From: Coptis chinensis
Taxonomy: Eukaryota; Streptophyta; Magnoliopsida; Ranunculales; Ranunculaceae
NCBI GenBank assembly: GCA_015680905.1
Contig: CM027384.1
Location: 65,975,001 to 66,039,000, forward strand
DNA length: 64,000 bases
Reading direction: 5' to 3'
The notes beneath the pieces are model-generated. The model was not told where the DNA came from, made no database searches, and saw nothing but the letters and a program-made list of their open reading frames with translations. Below are positions 2,819-40,211 of this stretch, one piece after another. Within the stretch, counting starts at the first letter, position 1. The number at the start of each line of letters is the position of its first letter. The position numbers and the translations under genes are program-made.

Positions 2819-4613
2819 CCCCAAACTTATTTTGGGGTGACGTATTTTCATCATGAAGAACAGAATACAGGTGCATCGCTGTATTTGCTCATGTTTGTAT
2901 GGTAATATCTTTCCTTATCTCTTCATACTTTTAGGACAAAGCATAGTTCTATTTTGGGGGTGGTATAGTAACATTTTGCAAAAACTAGACATTTTCTATA
3001 TAGTAGATATAATAGTATATTTCTTAATTTCTAAATTTTTTGAAAAAGACCAAAAACATTTTTCCGTTTAGTATTAAAAAGTCTTGTTTTCTTTTTCTAT
3101 GATGAATAAAAAGTTTAGAAATCCCATTATAGCAATAGAGTAAATATTCATTCTTCGTACTTAGACTAATATACGTATAATAGTTTCTGCATCTTTTCAT
3201 GAATGGCATGCATCAGCATTTGTTTGTATATAGCAGTGAGTTTCCGAAGCCAAGGTTAGAACAATTATGTTCCATATCATTTGAGAATCTAGCCAAAAGC
3301 CTCATCTGAATGATTTTTGAATGATGACACAAAAGATGTCTGGATAGAAAGACCACACGTCGACTTACTTGATCACCACGCCATATCCTAAGAGAGAATT
3401 TAGGCCCTTTTTGGATCGATATAGCCAAATAAACGTTAAAAACCTAAAAATATAGTTTTCCTCTAGTTACCCCTCTTGAGCCTTCACCTTTTCTAAAAGC
3501 CTTTTTATTCTTCACCAAATATTCATAACCCATTACAACACACAATAAAAAACTTACCCAGCTGACAAGTTGAGAACTAGATAGATATCAGAAAAAGAGA
3601 ATAGAAGACCTTGTACAAAAACAGAACAGTTATTTGCTTCAAAAAGAAAAGAAATGGAAGAAAAGAAAAGAAAGACCTATCAAAAACCAAAACTCTAAAA
3701 AAATCAAAGGAGTAAAAAAAAATCGAATCTCCCAAAAGTTCAAAATCAAAAGGAGATGATATCATAAACAAAAAAAAAAAAAAAAAAAACAAACAAAAGC
3801 AAAGTCAGAACTCCCAAAAATTCAAAATCATATGGAGTCACAAAACCAAGGGGATAAAACAATGTATCATACAATTTAGAAGCAAAATAACAAAACAAGG
3901 TTATTCTCTGGTTACAAGTATCATGAAGACCCAGTTCTCAACTTATCAGATTTTGTTTTTCCTTCCTTTTTATTTCTAAACTATCACCCTTGCCCTGTAA
4001 CTCCTAATAAAATACCTCTAACTCGATTAGGAATAGGATGGTGTGATAGTAAGTGGCAAGCTTGATCAATCGACCCATTTCTTTGGACGCCATTTGAGTA
4101 TATGAGGAATATAAGTGCCCACTGCACTTGAGAGAACGAAGCTTGAGTGAATCTATCAGAGAGTTGTGATTGCAACACACCCCTGTGAGAACCCACCTTA
4201 AGGACGCTCTCCAAAAGCCTCGAAAACAACTCTGCTTTTACATTTCATTGCTCATGTTTTGCACATTTATATTTAGATGATTAAATTACTGTATATATAT
4301 TATTCTAAGTTCAAAGGAGCTTGTCCTTATTCACCGCTAATGAGATGTATGAACTTCTGAGAATAAATAAGGAAACAAGACCATTTGTACTAAATAGAAG
4401 AAGTTTGTAAGTAACTTCACTGGAAAACTCTCATGAGGCTTAAAACTCATCCACTAGGGAATTCCTAGTGGTTTAAAGCCTTGTTGTATATGGTCAATGC
4501 AATTATACTCTGCGAAACGAGATTAGTATAACTTATAATAAATCACTCATTTGTGATATTAGTTTTTTCTCTCGTCCTTGCTTGAAGACAAGCAAGATGC
4601 TATTTGGGGATGG
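2819..4613 (+). mobile_element. 3' internal tail of a second, divergent Athila-like element
   Basis: Begins with a CCCCAAA/TTTTGGGG hairpin and an internal polypurine-like motif ('TTTTGGGGGTGG', about 2953), then repeats the block order of 49330-51111: 'TGCATCTTTTCATGAA', 'GATCACCACGCCATATCC', an A-rich stretch with a long A run near 3770-3790, the CCACTAGG palindrome at 4451-4471, an 8-bp-stem hairpin at 4577-4596 and a polypurine tract ('TTTGGGGATGG'). The sequence differs enough from the tail at 1-1076 to be a separate older insertion or subfamily. No coding capacity is visible. Confidence 0.65.
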
Positions 4614-5470
4614 TGATCAGCTCCTAAATGTGCATTTTATTACCCGTATATTGCTGCATTACAGCCTTTCTTACGCTTAATGGAAAGACAACTCATAGCT
4701 GCTATTGTCTTTTTCAGGTTATAAAGTATTTCAGATCACTTATCATAAAAGCTGCGTCTTAACACCAAAAGGAGGCTTAATCACGCTTATTATAAAGACC
4801 AGAAGTTGTTATGGAAAAGTGCTGAAAAAGTCAAAGTCAACGGTCAAAGTCAAAGCCCTCAACTTAGAATACCAGAGATGGATGCCCTTATCTCAAAATA
4901 TGACATTCTCCTAAAACCTACCTTGGTCAAGAAGAAATCAAAAAGAAAAAGAAAAAGCAAAAGCAAAAGTGAAGTGTGAGGTGTCTCATTTGTAATGGAG
5001 CAGGGCAAATCTGTAAAAGGCAAAAGTAGGGGTATATAACCAAAAGACGAGAGAGAAAACATCCATTGTCTTAGGATCCAAACCATTTGGTTTGTTTAAT
5101 TTCTTGTCTAGTTTTTTAATTCAAGTTTTTACTTTATTGTTTTTCATTTCCTTTTAATTAAAACTTGTTATTTTCCATTGTTCTTATTTTAATCTTCAAT
5201 CTTATCTTATTGTTTTTATTTCAATCTTCAATCAATCTTTCTTCAATGTTTTCATATCATTTCAATACCAAAAACTAAAGTTTTCATGTTTTCATTAGCT
5301 TAAAACTAATCTAATCTATATAAGAGTACATTTCTTCTTCACAACTCCCACACTCAAACTCTAAACAATTTTGGATGAACCTCACTTCTAAATTAACTCT
5401 TTCAAGTTACACACCACTGTTAAACAAAGCTTCAATTGGTAGGTTACACACTGTGTCACCTTCCGAAGGA
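4614..5470 (+). repeat. LTR of the second Athila-like element, right end uncertain
   Basis: Starts 'TGATCAGCTCCTAAATGTGC' directly after the polypurine tract. It contains a TATA-like box ('GGTATATAAC', 5031-5040) followed by T-rich sequence with repeated 'TTTTCATTTCC' and 'CTTCAATC' words, as expected for U3-R-U5. The downstream edge is set only by the beginning of helicase-like coding sequence near 5480. I see no matching upstream LTR in the window, so this is a 3' LTR of a truncated element or a solo-like remnant. Confidence 0.5.
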
Positions 5471-5495
5471 GAAAGATTTCACTTAAAATTGCTCC

Positions 5496-7366
5496 TTGCC
5501 CCATGTTAGAGGCCCAACCTCTTTCGATAACTTAAAGACCGTTCACTCTTACAAGTGCTCAACATTTAAAGAAACTGCTGAGAGATTGGGTTTACTTGAA
5601 AGTGATAATGCAATAAGGGAGTTGTTGTTAGAAGCAGCTACTATTCATATGCCTTTAGCACTCAAACGATGCTTTATCACTATTTTAATACATTGCCAAC
5701 CAGTGGGTGTTCGTGTTTTATGGAATGAGTTCCATGACTATATGGCAGATGATTTCTCTTCTATAACTTACTCCACTCACAAGATGAATCATTTGCTCAA
5801 AGAGTTGAATTCATTGTTGTCCCAATACAACAAATCTATTTCAGATTTTGATTTGTCGTGCATATCAGAAACATGCATTCGGTGCTCTTCGGACTTCAAC
5901 ATAATTATAGAGGAGCGCCGAGTACCTATACCACCTGAAGACTTAGCATCCATTCAAAGTTTGAATGCTGATCAGCGGATTGCTTTTGACACTATTATAC
6001 AATCAGCTGAACATAACGAAAGTTCTATTTATTTTATTGATGGACCAGGAGGCACTGGGAAAACATTTCTATACCGGTCGATCTTAGCCTATTTGAGGAA
6101 TGAGGGTCGCATATCAATTGCTACATCTAGCTCTGGTATTATTGCCATAATGTTTCCAGGAGGTCGTACAACACACTTAAGGTTTTAAATACCTATAAAT
6201 CTATGATCAACATCCACGTGTAATATAAGTAAGCATTCTCCCTTGGCCGAATTGTTGCGAGAATCCTCTATTATCATCTAGGATGAAGCTATAATGACCC
6301 ATCATCACGCATTTGAGGCTTTGGACAAAACCTTGAGAGATATCATGGATGTTGAAAATCCTTTTGGTGGTAAAGTTTTGGTGATGGGCGATAACTTTTG
6401 CTAGATGCTACCTATTGTAAATAAAGGTACAATAGCACAAACTATAGATGCATGCGTAACAAAATCAATTTTATGGAACTATGTAAAAGTCATCCGTCTT
6501 AGAGTGAATATGTGTGCATTGGAAGATTTTTCACTTTCTAATCTTTTACTACATATAGGAGATGGCACTGAGACATGTATCAATGGTGATATGGTAAAGA
6601 TACCTAATGATATGGTCATACCATGGGTGGATGATCACTCTTTGCTCGGCTAATAGACAGTGTGTTCCCATACATACAAGAAAATGTAGGCAATATAAAT
6701 TATGTAGTCCAGCGGGCTCTCATTACTCCAACTAATGATAGATGTTGTTGATTGTATAAACGAGCATGTTATTCAAAATTTTCAAGGAGATGAAGTCACA
6801 TGCTACTCATTTGATCATGTTGAGAATGATGAACGCCATTTGTACCAACCAGAGTTGCTTAACTATATTAATCCAGGTGGGTTGCCTCCTCACATATTGA
6901 CTTTGAAGATAAGATCACCGATAATGCTTCTCAGAAACATTGATCCTAAAAATAGGTTGTGCAATGGAACAAGGTTAATATGCCAGTCTTTTCTACCGAG
7001 CTTGATTTATGCAGATTATGCTACAGGTGGTTTTAAAGGTGCACCCGCTTTCTAGCACCATATCTAAAGCCTAGAGAGGATCTGAAGCTTCCATTCAATA
7101 TGATAAGAAAGCAGTTTTTGATTCATTTGAGTTTTGCTTTGACCATACATAAAGCTCAAGGGCAAACATTGCCTCACGTTTGTGTTTACTTACTTGATCA
7201 TGTATTCAGTCATGGCCAACTCTATGTGGCACCGTCAAGAGGCATATCAAGACACACGACTAAGGTATTGGTCAAAAAGGGAAATCAACCAGGTTACTTG
7301 GGAACTTTCACGAGAAAAGGGGTCTACACTGACATGTTTTCCTCATTTAACTCCATATCACAGTGA
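5496..7366 (+). pseudogene. Helitron-type Pif1 DNA helicase, broken
   Basis: Encodes the helicase half of a plant Helitron Rep/helicase protein, which would unwind DNA during rolling-circle transposition. The first frame (5496-6188) contains a Walker A motif 'GPGGTGKTF' preceded by 'LNADQRIAFDTI', the usual Pif1 start. Further frames continue the family: a decayed Walker B region near 6270-6290, 'MLPIVNKGT' at 6405, 'CNGTRLICQ' at about 6960, and the motif VI region 'TIHKAQGQTLPHVCVYL' with 'SHGQLYVAPSRG' at about 7150-7240. At least four stops or frameshifts separate the pieces (near 6188, 6402, 6653 and 7055), so no full protein can be made. No Rep (HUH) domain was found upstream, where an Athila LTR abuts it. 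It shares strand with the RPA-like gene at 11.75-15.66 kb, and the two probably came from one Helitron. Confidence 0.85.
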
Positions 7367-19255: not shown

Positions 19256-19725
19256 TAGATATACATCTTGGCCATCTGGGACATGGCGCATGTACCTTAT
19301 GTCTTGTGACTGAATCCAAACCCTAAAGATCGGACCCATCCCAAAGCCCTATGTCTAGTGTCTACTTGAGCCCAAAAGTCCGCTATAAAGTCCTCATTCA
19401 AATTAGATGTATTCCTACCTCCTAATTTCATTTGGCAAGCCTTTAATCCTATGCACTATTGGTAGTATTATGGCTTTTGATGACGATCAAAACTTCAAGA
19501 CAAGTAAATTTTATGCGACCACCTGATTGTATATGGAAGATGACTAAATGTGAAAATGAGTGTTTGTTTGATTTCTCAACAGTTGATCCTAATGTGGGCA
19601 ATTCTGATATGATGTGTAAGTTTGATCGCTTTACTATGAATTGGTCCAAAGTAGATGATTCAAAGGTTAGCTTCGATGGGCTAAATCACGATTTTGGCTA
19701 TGTGATGAAAACGGTGCAATGGAAG
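19256..19725. other. Flanking DNA at the left of the Tat element, with an unrecognised open frame
   Basis: A + strand open frame starts at 19459 and runs through the left boundary of the Tat LTR to 19782. Its element-external part (about 89 codons, 'VNFMRPPDCIWKMTKC' and 'FDGLNHDFGYVMK') resembles no family I know. Its continuation should lie at 39977 on the other side of the Tat insertion. It could be a fragment of a host or captured gene, or a chance frame. Confidence 0.3.
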
Positions 19726-19950
19726 TGTAGTTGGAGAAGATGTTTATCTAAGATCAATAACAAGGAACTAATGAAGATGTAGAACAAAGATTGAAAGAAA
19801 AGGAATTAAGCTTTTTCTATTAGTATCAATGGCGGTTACACATTTTTCTTTCTTTCTCTCTCTTTGCTCTGGTTTACAGATTTTTCTAGAATGAAATCAA
19901 AATGAATCTTTTCTTCTCCTTCTAGTCTTTATATAGTGCTTCGAGAATAG
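19726..19950 (-). repeat. Tat LTR (distal, 3' LTR), left piece
   Basis: Near-identical to the start of the LTR at 39601, beginning 'TGTAGTTGGAGAAGATG'. It breaks at 19950 where the CACTA transposon begins, and the sequence resumes at 28775. Together the two pieces give 375 bp against 376 bp in the intact copy. Confidence 0.9.
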
Positions 19951-19973
19951 CCAAAAGAACGACTTTACCCGAC
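19951..19973. repeat. CACTA left terminal inverted repeat, outer 5 bp missing
   Basis: Pairs with 28747-28769 with one mismatch. The outermost CACTA is replaced by LTR sequence (AATAG), which suggests a small deletion at the junction. This end may therefore be unable to be cut by a transposase. Confidence 0.85.
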
Positions 19974-20026
19974 TGACTATGGCTGTCGAAAGTTATTACC
20001 CGGCCAGGACCAAAACTGCAAAGAAG

Positions 20027-20386
20027 ACCGTCGAAAAATGCTCGGTCGGCATAGGCTTCCGGCGGTTTTATTGGTCAAAACAGGCCGTCGGGGTTGAGGA
20101 TCTTTGCCAACGGACATTCCCTCTTTTATTAATAACCGTCGGATATGCGGTACCGGCAAAACCGTCGGATATAGTTCTTCTTTGTAAAACCGTCGGATAT
20201 TCCTGCTGCTAAAACCGTCGGATATTCCTACTGCTAAAAACTGTTGGATATTCCTGTTGTTAAAAACTGTTGGATAGTTCTGTTGTTATGAACCGTCGGT
20301 TAGACCAGCTGTCACCAGCCGTCGGATATGCCAGCTGCTAGCCGTCGGGTAGTTTGCTACTAGACAGTTTTTATCCGTCGGGTATT
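20027..20386. repeat. CACTA left subterminal repeats
   Basis: About a dozen copies of ACCGTCGG or close variants, several in a 25-28-bp unit ('AAACCGTCGGATATTCCTGC'). In En/Spm elements such motifs are the binding sites of the TNPA-type protein. Some copies show CG to TG change (ACTGTTGG), as expected from deamination of methylated CpG. Confidence 0.8.
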
Positions 20387-20971
20387 AGTTCTTTATTTAA
20401 AAATATATTTTTATAATAATTGTTTCAGATATCCCAACATTACATTCTTGCAAGTTCCCACTCAAATGCTACAAACGCCAATGTATTCATAAAGAAACAA
20501 TGTGTTCATAAAAAAAACAACAATAAGACATGTCATTCACTAAGTATACATATTACTTCCTTCAGAAACCAAAAATCAGCACCACGTACACCATCTGTCT
20601 AGCAACAAGTCCTAGTAATCTCTAGTACCATTACTTACAACAAACATATTCAAAAAACCAAAATAGATGAAGTTTGCATATCCCACACAATAGATTACTC
20701 ATACTGCAACCTTGATTCAACCCTTCAACAAAATCACTAAGGTCCAAAGCGTCTCACCAAGTTGGTAATCCATTTGCCAAGATCTTGAAGTGAGTTTTGC
20801 TGACCAAAAAAAAAAAAAAAAAAGAAGATCATGAAGTACTCTCTTAGGAACTAGAAATAATTCTAGCTGTTCTATTCTAGCTATAAGTACCTAAAAATAC
20901 CCAAATAAAAATCCCAAAACCATGAAAAAGGGGATAAACAAACGCCAGCGATTCGTGAAGAAACATAACAT

Positions 20972-23482
20972 CTTTGACATTATCTTTGATCTTAGGAAGA
21001 GAATGTATTTGTGCTCGTTGTCCCCTTGTGGCAGATGCCCCAGTCCCACTATCAGACACATCCCCTTCAATATAGTAGCGGGCACGGAAAGCAGCCCAAA
21101 TCCGCGATAATACGGGAGGAAAACAAAAATGAAAAACTTCATCATCAATGACAGGAAGGAGGAAATTGTGAGAAGTACAACAGAAATTGGATGCCAAATA
21201 AAGACTTACCAACAGAACCACGGATCGTGTGCACCTTGCATACCTAAAACAAAAGGGTGAAAAGAGCGGAATGAGCACATCTTAAGAAAAGAAAAGAACA
21301 AAAAACACATTAGTCTTGAGCATTTAGAGATCACAAAGCGAAAGGTATTACATTATAGCATAAGTTGTTTGTAAGCATCCGTGATGGTATCCGAAAGGAA
21401 ATTATTCTCATCCCACGTAACATGATAGTGAGTAGGTCGGCTTTGGTACCTGTGGGCGTTATGGAACCATGGTTAAAACAGACATCCAAAAATAAAAACT
21501 TGCATGACTTGCCAAAGAATTACGGATACCGATACCAAAGATGACGCAGGGTAAAAATCAAACTCACGAAGGATGACATATCATTGAATCAACTCTGATT
21601 GCCCGATTAAGAAAAGTCATGTTTCAAACAACAATTCTCATATGACAATAAATCCTTGATAAGCTGATTGGACAAAGAGCGGGTACCGGGAAGAATATTT
21701 CCACTCACGTATGTCATATTTTTATTATCATGATCGTGAGGGAAAAGACATGTATGGTGTCTTTTCTGCACAACTACAAAGCGTTACAGGGAGGAAGATA
21801 CCCTCTTGCAGAGAAGCACAAGCCTAGATAAGAAAAAGCGATGATTCATATTAGAAACTAATTTTACTAGAACAATCTTTAGATAATTAAATGAAGATTC
21901 AAGACCTTTAATCGTCGCTGCGTCAACTCATTGAGTAGGACACGGGAAGGAACCTTCATTAACACCATCTCTCAAATTTGAAAAAATATATTATTGTGCG
22001 AATATATTAGCCTTCCAACGCATAATAAGAAACGTTGCTCCTAAATAAGGGTCATCACCTATAAAATATAATTCGTTGTGGTTTGTACCCAGTTGACTTC
22101 CTGAACGAAATCAGCAGCTCTCTATACAACAAAGTTACAAGAGAATAAGAAAATACTTTCGAGGAACAAAACTTTGGCTCCACTTTGCAACTAATCCAAC
22201 TCGCCAGTTTAACACCATGCCACGGATAAATAAGCCCGATTACTTTACATCCCCAACAATAAGAATCGGTAACTTCTGATGGCAGGTGTCATCTGGAATA
22301 AAGCAAAACACATGGTTTTGATATGAAACCTATTTCCAAGTTTGCGAGCAATTTTATAAACTACTTCACATTGTAGCTATTCATATGTGATACATGGGTA
22401 AGCTAAAATGTTGAACAAAAAGGCTATTTTATTCTACTTAAGCAGTTCAGTAGAAAAACAACTATTCACTCACCGGATCATCCCTGCATGGAAGGTACCC
22501 TTCTGAGGATCTTCAACCAATGAGTAAAGATCTTGGATCAACTCACGGTGATGGTGTTGTCTTTGAGACCGGACCTCTATTTTGATATCTCGGCCACCCA
22601 TGGAAGCAACCACCTGCCAATAGATACATTTTAAATATGGAAGGACTTAGGTAACACATCAGCAAGTAGAGGAAGAAAAGAGTGACTTACAGCTGCAATA
22701 GAAGGGCTGGAATCTTCCCGGGGAGGGTGTGTAACATCGGCACCAAAAAATAATCGTTGGTTTTTCTGAGACAATTGGCATTCTCCTGGAGAGCGCATCC
22801 ACCAGAACTGTGTTCCTTCCACCAGCCTACACCAAATTGCAAACCATGAGACTAACACACCACCACACAATAGTCTAGTGTAAATACACTAGCTGAAATG
22901 AATAGAACAACCTTCACATTAATCTTAAGAGCCACATTTTCAAGATACTACTTGTTACATTTCATCGCCTGCTTAGGCTGACAACACTGGGAGATTATAC
23001 CCAACTCTGTCTCGCAAATTCTTTTAATTTTACCTGTAAGAGAGTGAAAACCAAGCATATTAATAATATGCATGAGACTATATAAATCTACTAAGCTTTT
23101 ACTCACCATATGAACCAGTGCAATCTGGTAATATAATGATCAAAAGTTGGAGATGCCCCTGCTAACATGAACTTGCAATTTTTACAACTGATTGGGTGTA
23201 AGCCTGAATCAAAGTCTTTTCAATATGATCAACAGACCGTGTGAAGAGCAATGGGAGCAAAGGTTTTGGGTTGATACTCTGACAAGACGATCAAAAGAGT
23301 TAATGTAATTTATACACATGAATAATTGTACGTACAGATATTGGAAAAGAAAGCTATACCATTCCTTTACTGTTACACATGGAAACAAGATCAATGAAGA
23401 AACGCCCAGCACAATCTTGGTTCAGCTGTGAAAAGTTGATACACATCCAATGATGTATAGTGCCTCCATTAACCATTTTCTG
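20972..23482 (-). pseudogene. Captured ARGONAUTE gene fragment (MID/PIWI half), AGO1/5/10 type
   Basis: Reading right to left, a series of exon-like pieces matches the MID and PIWI domains of plant ARGONAUTE, the small-RNA-guided slicer: 'KMVNGGTIHHWMCINFS' (about 23470), 'QLLIIILPDCTGSYG' (23150), 'GKIKRICETELGIISQCC' (23030), '[16 protein letters not shown]' (22815), '[20 protein letters not shown]' (22740), 'RELIQDLYSLVEDPQKG' (22540), 'ELLISFRKSTGYK' (22115), 'RDGVNEGSF' (21955), '[12 protein letters not shown]' (21700), 'HYHVTWDENNF' (21440), 'YARCTRSV' (21245), 'AAFRARYYIEG' (21085) and 'LPKIKDNVKDVMF' (20995). Introns remain, so genomic DNA was captured. A premature stop (TAG, about 22977), a T-run frameshift near 22740 and a codon-scale deletion in the DVTHP...GEDSSP motif show it is broken. 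The QPKQA-like stretch after ISQCC and the C-terminus look closest to AGO5, but that is by eye. The N, PAZ and L1 parts are absent. Confidence 0.9.
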
Positions 23483-23559
23483 CAAATAAGAAGATCAAAT
23501 ATCAAACAGGATACAAATAAGTACATGGACACTAGAAGAGCTAAAAAGAGTTGATTTCA

Positions 23560-25916
23560 ACTAGCCAAAAACACCAACATCAATAATGCCCTCTTGCCCT
23601 AGGAGGTGTATAACCCACCAACCTTATAAATCAAGCAAGGCGAGCCTTATGAGCTAAGTGAATAGGAAGATGCATCATAGTAACAAACAATGATGGTGGG
23701 CAGATTCTCTCCAACGCGCACAATGCCTTGACCATACCCCTTTCCAGTACATCAAGTGTTTCAATCTCTACTTTCTTGAACACAAAGCACTAAAGAAAGT
23801 ACAAATGGTAGTAATAATTGTTCGAGCTTTCTTTTCATTTTGCCATCTTTATAAGCATCTTTGTATTAATACGGCAACAAATGTTGCATTAGAATATGAT
23901 AGTCATGTGACTTCATTTGTCTCAAATCCATTGAATCTCCTTTGACAATATTATACCGGTTACCACTAAACCCAACAGGTACACTAAGATTAAGCGCAAG
24001 GTTTGGATGAACAACTTCTTCTCCTCTTTTTGAAGCCAAAAGATACCTTGAGGCATAACCTGTTTCCCGCCAAGCTTAGGCACCCAATATTTCTTCTTTC
24101 TCTTTCATGCTTTTAAATCTTTAAGCGTGCATTGACATCATCTTTAGTTTTCCCTTTGTATTCAACATCAAAGCAAGAAGAATTTCACATACATTTTTTC
24201 AATATGCATGACATCAAAGTTATGATTTGAGGGACGAGAATGTGTTTCCAATACTTGAGCTTAAAGAAGATAGATCGCTTTGAAAACCACAAATTTCCTT
24301 TATTCCCTTCCTTATTCTTGCCGAAGCTTCCCAAATTGATGATTTTTCAAACTCTTAGTCACTCTCTTAACTTCAACTCCAAATAACCTTATTGGTTGCT
24401 CACCTTCTTCCTTTGTCTTATCATAGGTGCTTTCTCTTGTATCATTTCTAGCCTCGGATCTCAATGGAAGCCACCGTCTACTTCTCATATACACATGCTT
24501 ACTTCCATGGTGAAGTCTTATAGAAGCAGTTTTCGGACCACAAGGAGGGCAAGCAAATTTTCCCTTAGTTCTACAGCCAGAGATATTCCCATAAGCTGGA
24601 AAATCATGGATTGTCCACAATAAAATGGCACGCATATGGAACTCTTCACCTTTAAATGCATCTTTAACCATCACCCCATCACGCCACAATTATTGGAGTT
24701 CTTTAACCAACGGCTGCAAATAAACGTCAATATCATTACCTAGTTGCTTTGGACCCTCAATGAGAGTTGAAAGCATAGTGAATTGAGACTTCATGCATAG
24801 CCAAGGCGGGAGGTTATAGTTCACAAGCATAACAGGCCATGAACTGTGTTGCGCTCCAAAGTTGCCATAAGGAGTAAAACCATCAGTGGCTAGTCCCAAG
24901 CGAACATTCTGTGGCTCTATAGAGAAGTCTGGATATTTTAAATTGACTTGCTTCCACACTGCCGAGTCAACAGGATGCCTCATCGTGCCAGGCTTTGATT
25001 CTCCAGTAGAATGCCACCGCATCTACTTTGCCACCGCATCTCCTTTGCCACCCAAGGCACACTATACAATCGCTTCAACCTTTCCGTAAGTGGATAGTAT
25101 CGCAAGACCTTAGCAGGCACCCTAGTTCGCTTCCTCAAATCCTCAATGGTTGGAGTTTTGTATCTAGAAACTCCACAAGTAGGACAGGTAACCTTAAATT
25201 CATTCTTTTCCCAATACAAGATGCAGTCATTTCTACATGCATCAATCTTCTTGCATTTCAGTTTCAAGTCTTTAATCATCTTATCTGCCCTGTAGTTATT
25301 CTCTGGTATCTTGTTACCAGCAGGCAACACCATGCGGAGTAGTTAAAGCAATACGGTAAAACTCTTATCACTCCACCCATTTGTGTACTTCAGGTTAAGG
25401 AGTTTCACGACAAATCTAAGAACACTGAAGTCACATCCAGGATATAATGCAGTCATTGCTTCATGCAAGTTAGCGTTAAAAGCAACAACGTCTATGACTT
25501 CTCTCCCCTCTGTACAACCTCCTGGATCATCTCCAAGAAAAGTGTCCAAGTTGTCAAGACTAAACTCTTGAGCAATGGTGTGGAAAGCATCATTCATGTC
25601 AACCACATGCACGTTCTCTTGAAATCCCGACCCTCTTTCATTGTGTTGTTCTTCCACTTCTTTCTCACCGTGCAAGAACCACATTTTATATGTCTTGTCA
25701 AACCCATAGCTAAAACAGTGTAGGGCAACATTATCGTGACTCATTCTTTAGCGCCTTGGTTTTAGACACTTTTCGACAAGAACATGGTATGACATTCTTG
25801 TTAACGTGGTGTTCGAGGCAAATGTTACAAACTCGTAACACCTCTTATAAAAGCGGGGATGCGAAATTGTCTAGATCAATCCAACTCTTATCTATCATCA
25901 AGCACGTTGACTCCAT
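23560..25916 (-). pseudogene. CACTA transposase of the TNP2/TNPD type (Transposase_21), broken
   Basis: Starts at an ATG near 25916 with 'KSWIDLDNF', typical of the transposase-associated N-terminal domain, then 'HCFSYGFDKTYKMWFLHGE' (about 25710). The core follows: 'CPTCGVSRYK' (25190), 'LATDGFTPYGNFGAQHSSWP' (24890), 'YNLPPWLCMKSQFTML' (24800), 'NDIDVYLQPLVKELQ' (24720), 'HMRAILLWTIHDFPAYGNIS' (24620), 'NHNFDVMHIEKMYV' (24215), 'MKSHDYHILMQHLLPY' (23910) and 'LERICPPSL' (23725). These are hallmarks of the protein that cuts CACTA ends. At least five stops or frameshifts (near 25750, 25343, 24985, 24689 and 24312) break it. The ARGONAUTE fragment begins less than 100 bp downstream on the same strand. 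Confidence 0.9.
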
Positions 25917-28559
25917 GATGTACTTCTAAGAGATAAGAAAGAATAAATGAAACTCAGAACTAGAAAAATAGCTAAATAGTTATGTAGAGGCATACACTAA
26001 CTAGGCCAAGGAGTTACAATGCTAACTCTAAGCAACTCTACGCATACACTAACCTAATATTCATTACCAAAGTTAGATGAAACTAGAGTTGAACACATAT
26101 ATTTATGCATCTTATATAATCAGCAATACATACACAAACATATTGGTGTTGTAATAAGAAAGACATCAATCCTACAATGCTAGCAAGACATTTCTATTTG
26201 AAAAATCAGTTCGTTTTTCAAAGAGTAAAAAAGGTATAATAGTTGAACTTAGTTAACTAGATTGCTCTCAAACTACCTTAGAATTTTTTTTACAGAACCA
26301 AACACAATGTGGCAATTTTATTTTGATACATCATCCTCATTTGACTAACACATTTGATTAAAGCATTACTCAAATAATAATAAAATGAGTTGCTTTAAAC
26401 AAATCAAAGTCGGTAGCCTTTGATTTGAAGGTATGATACTAGTATGCTACATATGATACTAGTCTCCATACACCTCTTCGTTCGAATATTTTTTTTAGGC
26501 ATTGAGCATTATATAATACTAGTCTACTACAATTGTAAAGCTATATAAACCACGACATTTCTAATTCCACAAAATGCATTACCACTAGTATAAAGCCCGC
26601 TTAACTATCGTGTTTCATCAAACAATGTCATATAAAAATGTGGAATATGGGGAACTGAAAAATAGAATATGGGAAAAATAAAAATACATTCTTACAGTTG
26701 GTTATATATAAAATGGAGCTTTCAAATTAGATTATAAGAGACAAAAAGATAGCCAAAAAAAAAAAAACACATATATAGAATACTAAATTTTCACCGACAC
26801 TAAAATATAGAATACACACTTACAGAAAGCAAAGAAAAACAACCAAGGAACCCTGCTTGTCATCCAAAGCAATTTAAACAAGAAGATCAGACATTATGTA
26901 AGAAGCCCTTTGTCGAACCACACAAATCAAATTGGACAAACTTACCAGAAATTATGGCGACGTAATATGGTCTTTAGACGAATATTCTCAGAGCTGAAAT
27001 TAATCAAACACAAGTTTTAATAAAACAGCTAGAAAAGAAATCATGTTACACTTATCGAACACAAGTTTTAAATAAATAACTTAAGTTTCCATCTTTTAAA
27101 AGTCGGTGTTCAAACGAGTGGTAGTGGAAGTGGAGGAGGAGATGTGTGGTGGCAGAGAGATGAGGTGGTGGCTTTGTAGTGAAGGAAAGTGAAGATTTTT
27201 TAAGGATTAAACATGCAAAAACTACCCTCCACCTTCTCTCCACTGGGGGCAGGTGCACGATGACAACATCACCACCACAAGTCAACTATGGCGTCGGCAC
27301 TACTACAACGAGATGGACCCGATTGATGAGTTTCATGAACAAAAGATTAAGGGCACTGAAAAAAAGTACAACAAAATACTCCAAATCGAGAAGCTTTTTC
27401 ACAAGGCAAACCCGGCTACTCAAATTTTGGTAATAAAAGCGAAAATTTAGCAACCCAAATCGGGGGAATATAAGTGGCTTAACAGATTACGATGATGTTG
27501 TTGGGCGGCTTTGCACGCCTGGACAAGTCACAGAATGCAAACACCCTTCCATATGTATGGTGTTACATATCACTCCAACAATTAGAAGATTTTTTTGTAT
27601 CTTTTGTAACGGTAGCGTATTGAACAGGAAATTCCAATATTACGTTCATCACTTTTACAATTAAACATTAAGAGCTGAAACTGTAAAGAACCCAGTACTT
27701 AAAAGTACTTAAAAACAAGATTAAGTAACAACTAGTTGAATTTTTACCCTCATTTAGTCCTGAATCAACTAAAATAACCTTAGTAAAGATCTAATATAAT
27801 ATTGGAATATGTACGCCTCCGTCCACTGGAAATGGGACTCTTTCTTCATACAATCCGTCAATCCGGCCTTCACTGACTTAAATTTATAAGATTGAGATAG
27901 AAATTGGCCAAACCGTGAAAACTCCTAACTTCCGTAGTGACCCCCATGCAACAGTGCGTTAGGTTCATTTTGGTCGGGAGTGAAGTGCCAACTGACTATG
28001 TTGAGCCTTTCCTCTAGCCGCAAGTAAGAGGGAAGGACAGCAACAGTTTCGATTTGAGGGGATGACTAGAAAGATATACCCCACTCAATTCTTGGAAATT
28101 CAGGGAGGAAAAGGCACGCAAGAGTCATGGCAGTGCTACAGACAGACTGCACACTCGTAGAATCACTTGCATAGTAAAGATATTATTCTTTTTTTTTTGA
28201 TAAAAAAAGATTTTGTTCTTAAGTTCTTTCACCAGAGAAATTAAGAGAAACGTACTTTTTTGTATTTGGTTTTCTACTTCTACTATGTTGACTAGAACTC
28301 ATTGAAATTAACTAAATATTCAAACATTGAATTACCTATTCAGGTTGAGAACGAAGTGACTGTGGTGCCAATGAAATTCAAGAGTTTCACAAGGTAATGG
28401 TGTAATCAGCAGGGCTATTGCAGAAGGCGAATAGTAGAAGAAGAAGCTGAAAAGTCGAAAGTTTTAGAGTCGGCTTAATTATTTTAATTTTAGGGTGGTT
28501 TAATTTTTCATGAAATTTTGGGCGTGGGAAGTGAAATCTTTGCCGCCTGATAATTGAAT
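25917..28559. other. CACTA interior upstream of the transposase, no gene recognised
   Basis: A+T-rich sequence with small unconvincing frames, for example 27179-27433 on + ('DPIDEFHEQKIKGTEKK' in one frame), which match nothing I know. In En/Spm elements this region holds the promoter and sometimes a TNPA-like first gene; no exon of one could be identified. Confidence 0.4.
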
Positions 28560-28746
28560 AGATATACCGACGGTTAAGTAGTACTGCCATGTAAAGCCCG
28601 TCGAACTAGCCGATAGCTAAAAACTCTCGTGCAACCGTCGGACAGAATAAAACAATCGGGGACGGATGGCCAACTAATACCCGACGGATAAAAGGCGTTG
28701 GTAACGTCCTATGGTTATAAACCGTCAGGTAATCTTTCTGGAGTTT
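28560..28746. repeat. CACTA right subterminal repeats
   Basis: Copies of ACCGTCGG and its complement CCGACGGT in both orientations (about 28567, 28600, 28637, 28680 and 28723), matching the motif cluster at the left end. Confidence 0.75.
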
Positions 28747-28774
28747 GTCGGGTAAAGTCGTTTTTTTGGTAGTG
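28747..28774. repeat. CACTA right terminal inverted repeat, intact
   Basis: Ends 'TTTTTTTGGTAGTG', that is CACTACC read inward on the - strand. It keeps the full CACTA pentamer that is missing from the left end. Confidence 0.9.
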
Positions 28775-28924
28775 ATTAACCAATCACTAACTGCCGCATG
28801 TCTATTCTCTTCTTCCTCCTCCTTTTCCCGCCTTAAACCTGCAATATACAAACTGTAATACCAATTAACGATATATCGCAATATTTGGACTAGAATATCG
28901 GGGTGACGATATTTTCCCACGACA
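28775..28924 (-). repeat. Tat LTR (distal, 3' LTR), right piece
   Basis: Continues the LTR interrupted at 19950 and matches the right part of 39601-39976 ('CGGGGTGACGATATTTTCCC' near the end). It terminates with CGACA, giving TG...CA termini for the reassembled LTR. Confidence 0.9.
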
Positions 28925-28945
28925 TCGCCCCCTCTCGAAACTTTC
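28925..28945 (-). promoter_or_regulatory. Polypurine tract of the Tat element
   Basis: On the - strand the bases just before the distal LTR read 'TCGAGAGGGGGCGA', a purine-rich primer site for plus-strand synthesis, exactly where Ty3/gypsy elements have it. Confidence 0.7.
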
Positions 28946-39582: not shown

Positions 39583-39600
39583 AAGCACAGACGGCGCAAA
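39583..39600 (-). promoter_or_regulatory. Tat primer-binding site
   Basis: On the - strand the sequence directly inside the 5' LTR is 'TTTGCGCCGTCTGTGC', a tRNA-3'-end-complementary site of the GCGCCGTCTGTG kind seen in several plant Ty3/gypsy elements. Its position next to the LTR end ACTACA supports the role. I could not assign the tRNA. Confidence 0.65.
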
Positions 39601-39976
39601 TGTAGTTGGAGAAGATGTTTATCTAAGATCAATAACAAGGAACTAATGAAGATGTAGAAAAAAGATTGAAAGAAAAGGAATTAAGCTTTTTCTATTAGTA
39701 TCAATGGCGTTTACACATTTTTCTTTCTTTCTCTCTCTTTGCTCTGGTTTGCAGATTTTTCTAGAATGAAATCGAAATGAATCTTTTCTTTTCCTTCTAG
39801 TCTTTATATAGTGCTTTGAGAATAGCCTTAACAAATCACTAACTGTCGCGTGTCCATTCTCTTCTTCCTCCTCCTTTTCCCGCCTTAAACCTGCAATATA
39901 CAAACTGTAATACCAATTATCGATATATCACAATATTTGGACTGGAATATCGGGGTGACGATATTTTCCCCCGACA
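39601..39976 (-). repeat. Tat LTR (proximal, 5' LTR), intact
   Basis: 376 bp with TG...CA ends, matching 19726-19950 plus 28775-28924. On the - strand a TATA-like box ('ACTATATAAAGACTAG', around 39805-39820) would drive transcription of the element toward lower coordinates. Confidence 0.9.
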
Positions 39977-40211
39977 TGAAGCTAGTTATTCCTCGATAAG
40001 TTGAGGAATCTTGGCAGCAAAATAAGAATGAGGAATAGAATAATAGTTGATCTTGTCTATGTTACTTGTCACTACTTGGCTAAGTTTTTTATGGACTTTC
40101 ACATTTTCCTAATACAAGGGGGCAGAAAAACTAGCTATGTAATATAATTTCATTTTATTACAAGGAATTTGGTAGTAAATTAAGTGGTATTTTGGTCTTG
40201 ATATTAATTAT
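39977..40211. other. Flanking DNA between the Tat element and the copia element
   Basis: Begins with TGAAG, the probable Tat target duplication, and continues the sequence left of 19726. From about 40127 it is repeated at 58784 ('CTAGCTATGTAATATAATTT'), which marks the start of the large duplication. No gene. Confidence 0.6.

Follow-up and report, generated by a model that had tools for sequence, protein, structure and literature searches.

An intron-containing AGO5/MEL1 gene fragment inside a CACTA transposon of Coptis chinensis, probably carried as passenger cargo

The 64,000-nucleotide stretch of DNA analysed here (the window; C8:65975001-66039000 of the Coptis chinensis genome of 935.6 Mb) contains a CACTA (EnSpm-type) transposable element that encloses, on the minus strand, a fragment of an ARGONAUTE (AGO) gene of the AGO5/MEL1 type. 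This arrangement is very probably the product of ordinary CACTA gene capture, with AGO5 as the passenger cargo of one element lineage that has spread to at least six places. The element is real, well bounded and of a kind already known, and its AGO5 cargo looks like a passenger; the most interesting part of the analysis is that AGO5 was captured more than once, in separate families of CACTA elements. A DNA search of the same genome with the AGO block recovered at least five further close copies of it (90–97% identity) in relatives that hold all or part of the block, named here A (C1 28.18 Mb), B (C1 36.59 Mb), C (C5 59.9 Mb), D (C6 19.4 Mb) and E (contig C12).

The captured AGO5 block and its CACTA element

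The block at 20961-23634 aligns to the intact AGO5 gene L012 (C8 67.20 Mb, hand-spliced; 98% identical to IFM89_034366), the intact AGO gene closest in sequence to the cargo, from the intron preceding the MID exon to the last codons. Twelve ordered L012 exons project onto window positions 20956-23479 with 82–97% identity and with introns between them. The initial annotation had read ordered MID/PIWI peptides of an AGO protein on the minus strand at 20972-23482; the alignment to L012 recovers these peptides exon by exon and AGO homology throughout that interval, although the homologous block is slightly wider. Since introns are present in the block, the capture was genomic, as the initial annotation had also proposed, and a processed retro-copy is ruled out. 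The main parts of the cargo are as follows.

20961..23634, minus strand: AGO5/MEL1 gene fragment, MID-PIWI, 12 exons with introns and broken frames (profile, structure-chain and gene alignments)
23360..23479, minus strand: first captured exon, KMVNGGTIHHWMCINF... (exon projection)
22691..22826, minus strand: exon with the GADVTHP motif region (exon projection and open reading frame (ORF) reading)
20956..21121, minus strand: last exon, ending ..VKDVMF; the native YC-stop is gone here and kept in element D

The GADVTHP motif of exon 22691-22826 is presumed to have a catalytic role. The joined AGO peptides match Pfam Piwi at E 1e-23 and the solved AGO10 chain 7sva at E 3.4e-55. Taken singly, three of the six stop-to-stop pieces match Pfam Piwi (profile positions 62-104, 131-155 and 191-218) and the other three give ArgoMid at E 0.081, an unrelated family only, and no match, all of these single-piece Pfam matches lying under the curated cut-offs; an NCBIfam scan of the cargo ORFs returned no matches. 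In a protein tree of 21 rows the four AGO1/AGO10 rows are split from the other 17 at 100/100 and the cargo is nested within Coptis AGO5, also at 100/100, so that the protein alignment assigns it to the AGO5/MEL1 clade, apart from AGO1/AGO10. The long-branched Silene_PNH1 and Miscanthus_AGO12, which was set as outgroup, fall on the AGO5 side, and sequence names are thus not fully consistent with the tree.

An intact MID-PIWI frame under purifying selection, as expected of a functional Argonaute, is not found in the cargo. Stops and frameshifts, already noticed in the initial annotation, are present in the window copy, subject to the caveat of Nanopore assembly errors. The Coptis chinensis assembly is probably the published one based on Nanopore R9.4 reads with short-read polishing (936.6 Mb; PMC8172641), and some of the 1-nt indels in the cargo may therefore be assembly errors. 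The 3' half of the window cargo (~21210-21990) is more diverged from element B (85–93%) than the 5' half (mostly 95–99%), which may reflect recombination or a local assembly error.

The element that holds this block displays the characters of CACTA (EnSpm/CMC) transposons: terminal inverted repeats (TIRs) that start with CACTA (perfect at the right end; both ends intact in B and D), TNP2 transposase sequence and subterminal repeats. Its features are listed below.

~19951..28774, minus strand (TNP2 and AGO both read on this strand): CACTA (EnSpm-type) element with the AGO5 fragment (TIRs, unoccupied target homologue, relatives with both ends and 3-bp duplications)
28747..28774, minus strand: intact 5' TIR, CACTACCAAAAAAACGACTTTACCCGAC on the minus strand; perfect right terminus
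19951..19978, plus strand: truncated 3' TIR, terminal CACTA gone, host sequence joining at CC (compared with the intact ends of B and D)
39598..39977, plus strand: unoccupied copy of the repeat hit by the insertion (flank alignment)
20040..20390, no strand assigned: repeats of CCGTCGGATA type in the subterminal region of the 3' end (repeat families and inverted repeat), with fewer similar motifs at ~28560-28740
24312..25022, minus strand: two open frames with pieces of the TNP2 transposase (PF02992; E 8.7e-46 and 4e-30)
25343..25747, minus strand: weak piece of the Transposase-associated domain (PF13963; E 0.0007, 20.2 bits against a curated cut-off of 27.7)
23634..23653, no strand assigned: internal deletion junction, ~9.7 kb missing relative to element B (element-coordinate comparison)

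Both of the inverted-repeat ends proposed in the initial annotation are real, the right one being perfect and the left one lacking its terminal CACTA: the left TIR begins at 19951-19953, its final five bases are gone, and host sequence runs to ..GAATAGCC before element sequence starts. The flanks of the element (19723-19945 and 28776-28925) align at 97% and 95%, respectively, to the repeat at 39598-39977, and this unoccupied copy of the target demonstrates the insertion. Owing to the eroded left end the 3-bp target duplication is unreadable in the window element; it is readable in B (TTT) and D (AGT). AGO homology beyond the CACTA ends of the window element was looked for and not found, the block remaining inside them as first described. 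The motif CCGTCGG, with one mismatch allowed and one strand counted, occurs 12 times in the 801 bp of the left end, three times in the 800 bp of the right end (five times on the other strand) and not at all in the AGO block; it is nearly its own reverse complement, and the counts therefore say nothing on orientation.

The internal junction pairs window-element coordinates 5664/5667 with 6170/15832 of B, and 5648/5653 with 7114/14101 of A. The ~9.7 kb absent relative to B lies between TNP2 and AGO and comprises the TNP2 C-terminal region and other captured fragments. An intron-containing host fragment lies inside transposon termini and a gene of the donor type is found elsewhere in the genome, as gene capture implies. 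TNP2 sequence is present both in the window element and in element A, which puts them outside the strict Pack-TYPE definition (non-autonomous, no transposase).

Relatives of the element, common origin and decay of the cargo

Two of the relatives are complete: B measures 18,165 bp and has both TIRs, TTT/TTT, the TNP2 region and other host gene fragments, and D measures 4,440 bp and has AGT/AGT. In the DNA stretch read, a single terminus is seen for each of A, C and E. The AGO block is divided unequally among them, A holding only its 5' half, D only its 3' half, and B and C lacking the last two exons. Element D keeps the stop codon and some 10-18 nt after it, both of which the window copy has lost. 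Beyond AGO, the C-terminal TNP2 domains DUF4218 and DUF4216 are found in A (L028), and a fragment of an MFS_MOT1 molybdate transporter scores 34.1 bits in A and 33.4 in B (cut-off 30). An RRM_1 fragment in B (L029) reaches 21.0 bits against a cut-off of 20.7. The region between TNP2 and AGO in A and B further contains a DUF4283 piece, below its cut-off, and a kinase-like N-terminus identified by eye, whose best match to a solved structure is weak (E 0.011).

The AGO/CACTA junctions are common to the copies, and whichever half of the block is analysed, the copies of the cargo group together as a single clade (5' half: window, A, B, C and E, 100/100; 3' half: window, B, C, D and E, 100/99). The two halves place the cargo differently, as a lineage separate from L012 and its paralogue L015 in the 5' half and near L012/L015 in the 3' half. 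Its donor may therefore be a gene-converted or lost AGO5 paralogue, and the exact donor may lie outside the paralogues found. L015 (C3 123.67 Mb; IFM89_022987) has a ratio of nonsynonymous to synonymous substitution rates (dN/dS) of ~1.0 against L012 and a shifted stretch in exon 10, and may be decaying or diverging fast. The third AGO5-like copy, L018 (C8 62.31 Mb), carries a 35-nt exon insertion and small deletions and is probably a pseudogene.

Among the cargo copies dN/dS ranges from 0.63 to 2.24 (14 of 15 pairs computable, A and D being without overlap), compared with 0.21 for the gene pair L012-L018, and the introns have diverged to about the same extent as the exons. Most frame breaks are confined to a single copy; with the assembly-error caveat, stops or frameshifts occur in the window copy, B, C, D and E, and exons e1-e4 are open in element A. 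Given the dN/dS values, the intron-like divergence and the private frame breaks, the copies decay without clear protein constraint. As far as sequence comparison can tell, the data indicate a single capture followed by spread and drift.

The proposed course of events would start with a high-copy CACTA family of Coptis chinensis that took up a genomic AGO5/MEL1 block starting in the intron that precedes the MID exon and ending shortly after the stop codon, perhaps by aberrant gap repair or by joint movement of neighbouring elements. The parent element also contains pieces of genes for a molybdate transporter, for an RRM protein and, judged by eye, for a kinase. The lineage with the AGO cargo would then have reached its six or more places, presumably by transposition also for those copies without two readable ends, and the window copy would have arisen later by deletion, having lost one terminus and, apparently, its mobility. 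The AGO block itself would be a passenger, neither maintained as protein nor designed as a hairpin and probably without function. At most it would be read through in sense with TNP2, or contribute to the small interfering RNA (siRNA) pool of the host like other transposon sequence. A TNP2 copy of the same family lies at C8:67346829-67348979, ~139 kb from the intact AGO5 gene, and is possibly an example of the neighbourhood that joint-movement models of capture require.

The share of AGO carriers in the family was assessed through its transposase. In each of the genome DNA searches at most the best 40 candidates were scored, out of 83 for the AGO block, 512 for TNP2, 164 for L012, 2530 for the AGO gene L010 and 223 for the AGO gene L009. 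The 40 scored matches of the window TNP2 lie at 91–96% identity (the window itself at 100%), and three of them belong to AGO carriers (window, A and C). For the other 37 the nearest listed AGO match is at least 138 kb off or on another contig, a comparison of listed positions and not of element sequence, and the carrier B is not among the best 40. Three carriers among 40 scored TNP2 matches argue against the AGO cargo driving the success of the family.

A second CACTA family and other AGO fragments

Three loci flagged by a Piwi search (L023, L024 and L025) share a repeat starting CACTACAACAAA. Together with L036, L023:4990-9901 forms a complete element of 5,725 bp with AGT/AGT, and L025:4766-9901 with L037 a complete element of 5,879 bp with TGT/TGT; L024:5193-9901 is a third copy of this second family (F), in which no TNP2 was noticed. 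Its AGO5 blocks stand in changed order (L012 6381-6652, then 4169-5766; 92–96% identity), and the same blocks occur at a fourth place, C5 43.06 Mb. Across the 272 bp common to the cargo of both families the second-family copies group with L012/L015 (94/90). On this short alignment the approximately unbiased test disfavours a single origin of the two cargoes (p 0.041), and the families differ in their ends and breakpoints. Unexpectedly, a second, unrelated CACTA family has taken other parts of the same AGO5 gene.

AGO5 sequence is dispersed more widely still. With the whole of L012 as query, matches that reach 300 bits among the scored candidates (at most 40 of 164) lie at 48 or more non-gene places, which correspond to at least 36 loci, after exclusion of the genes or gene-like regions at C8 67.20, C3 123.67-123.68 and C8 62.27-62.31. 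Exons are overlapped at 35 of the 36 loci, the one at C3 55.93 Mb being intronic only; six of the 36 are on small unplaced contigs and are possibly duplicate assembly. They form several sets of fragments with common breakpoints, among them L012 5024-5560 (six places) and 2514-2821 (seven places, three of them also with 5410-5517). These multi-copy AGO5 sets are seen at 76–93% identity, for example at C7:97147535, C18:197776, C9:18854630, C4:89566164 and C3:4474219.

Two other AGO genes served as controls. The 6,091-bp query from L010 returns at least one further locus that reaches 300 bits among the best 40 of 2530 candidates, a lower bound in which an intronic repeat occupied most of the scored places. 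L009 gives at least 26 non-self places of at least 300 bits, six of which overlap exons detected by tblastn; the other 20 lie in two repeat-like stretches (query 4932-5546 and 5787-6091) and were set aside, so that the contrast between AGO5 and L009 is 36 versus 26 when no exon filter is applied. AGO5 has more dispersed pieces than either of the other two AGO genes, clearly so when exonic pieces are counted and only modestly in the raw count, and it is not alone; the comparison covers these three AGO genes. Exonic fragments of L009:6290-7274 are dispersed over six places, for example C5:35977329 and C6:19925916, and AGO pieces thus move in the Coptis genome beyond AGO5.

The other AGO-like loci L020-L022, L026 and L027 were scanned for CACTA ends with matching 3-bp duplications within 9.9 kb and none were found, a range that more distant ends would escape. 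The scan recovered B, D, F and G, together with one weak match in L024, and gave five matches in 517 kb of shuffled sequence. L026 and L027 (C2 21.93 Mb and C8 29.69 Mb) represent a 5.9-kb repeat, 98% identical between the two places, with a 99% identical piece of the AGO gene L011 and an ORF that by eye resembles mitochondrial rps3.

Possible effects on the plant, rival readings and precedents

The initial annotation had raised the possibility that antisense or hairpin transcripts of the cargo yield small RNAs against the host AGO gene. Inverted AGO arms of at least 30 nt were found in none of nine AGO-carrying elements or partial elements, in a test that did recover the 33-nt TIR of B, and none of the nine is therefore a ready long hairpin. 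The AGO block has the same orientation as TNP2, so its read-through would be sense, and the hairpin route finds no support. The spliced AGO5 MID-PIWI mRNA contains 1306 21-mers, of which 130 recur in the window copy, 188 in element B and 193 in element D, compared with 282 in the paralogous gene L015 and 189 in L018. Small RNAs, if made, could thus match AGO5 but also its paralogues.

The rival that survives best holds that the cargo is anti-silencing, small RNAs from the many AGO5-carrying elements targeting AGO5 mRNA in reproductive cells, relaxing silencing and favouring transposition. The abundance of exonic AGO5 pieces relative to L010 and L009, the uptake of AGO5 by two separate CACTA families, the AGO5 21-mers still kept by the window copy, B and D, and a CACTA precedent in rice, miR820 acting on OsDRM2 (PMC3459959), all speak in its favour. 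Set against these are the lack of AGO inverted repeats in the nine elements, the TNP2-like orientation of the cargo, the low share of AGO carriers among the scored TNP2 matches and the presence of other host genes as cargo. L009 also has dispersed exon fragments, and AGO5 may not be special. On balance this rival is improbable. A broader form, in which AGO5/MEL1 has been captured again and again, by two or more unrelated CACTA families and probably by further carriers, the pool yields siRNAs against AGO5 in reproductive tissue, and the capture of silencing genes is selected in transposons, is given an equally small chance.

Less probable still, and regarded as very unlikely, is that the AGO block encodes a truncated MID-PIWI or a TNP2-AGO fusion protein with dominant-negative action. 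Its sense orientation downstream of TNP2, the open exons e1-e4 of A and the annotation of the B cargo as a protein would permit this, but dN/dS near 1 among the copies, the stops and frameshifts noted above, the absence of the last exons from B and C and the loss of the native stop in the window copy oppose it. The remaining proposal, an AGO5 pseudogene flanked on both sides by chance insertions of CACTA ends, would fit the window copy if this copy, whose left end is broken, were considered by itself; it is refuted by the complete elements B and D, which hold the same cargo (D its 3' part) between 3-bp duplications on other chromosomes, while target repeat sequence directly flanks the window element.

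Several observations weigh against passenger capture as the full account. The five dN/dS values that involve the window copy are all below 1 (0.63-0.76; the other nine pairs, 0.80-2.24). The cargo of element B is annotated as a Piwi-domain protein of 169 aa, IFM89_009226, a record of annotation and not of expression; its residues 1-35 and 82-129 agree exactly with B, most of the rest at 92–94% and the last 19 residues poorly. This gene model leaves room for expression of the cargo. That a second family also took this gene, and that AGO5 pieces lie at 36 or more non-gene loci, goes beyond a single accident.

Passenger capture has established parallels. Capture of host gene fragments by CACTA elements is well documented (PMC1947982, PMC8903248, PMC8978399 and the 2026 review PMC13317346). 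Tgm-Express1, a soybean CACTA element with five host gene fragments (PMC1947982), likewise combines several unrelated gene pieces with exons and introns kept; the Coptis parent element differs in also holding TNP2, in including an ARGONAUTE in its cargo and in the occurrence of all or part of that cargo at six loci. Pack-CACTA and Pack-TYPE elements (PMC8903248; PMC13317346, which cites Catoni 2019) similarly multiply genic DNA between CACTA termini, at times with pieces of more than one locus. They are non-autonomous, whereas the Coptis parent element contains TNP2 domains; the second Coptis family (F) looks like a typical Pack-CACTA. In Chenopodium (PMC8978399), CACTA elements also enclose host gene fragments, captured from AP2 and Neprosin, but these lie in the 5' region, in contrast to the Coptis AGO cargo downstream of TNP2.

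Two further systems bear on small RNAs. A CACTA-derived small RNA directed against a host silencing gene is established for rice miR820 and OsDRM2 (PMC3459959), which resembles the Coptis case in its many copies of sequence from a host silencing gene; maize gene-capturing elements (PMC13317346) resemble it in that donor pieces could feed siRNAs. In rice a stem-loop and its small RNA are demonstrated and in maize the siRNAs were measured, whereas in Coptis no inverted AGO arms of at least 30 nt were found in the nine elements or partial elements, and siRNAs from the cargo are only postulated. The word argonaute is absent from the main text of PMC8903248, PMC8978399 and PMC13317346, and its sole mention in PMC11986588 is not a capture. 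Among titles and abstract openings of the open-licence literature searched, no capture of an Argonaute by a transposon is reported.

The Coptis elements touch on the question of whether it benefits a transposon to carry parts of the silencing machinery of its host. To our knowledge there is one well-worked plant case of a transposon profiting from sequence of a host silencing gene, miR820. With one AGO gene, two CACTA families, element copies and several published assemblies, Coptis is a natural test, and failure of the siRNA test would make it a clear example of such cargo as pure accident. The listing of one cargo copy as a Piwi-domain protein is a warning for annotators.

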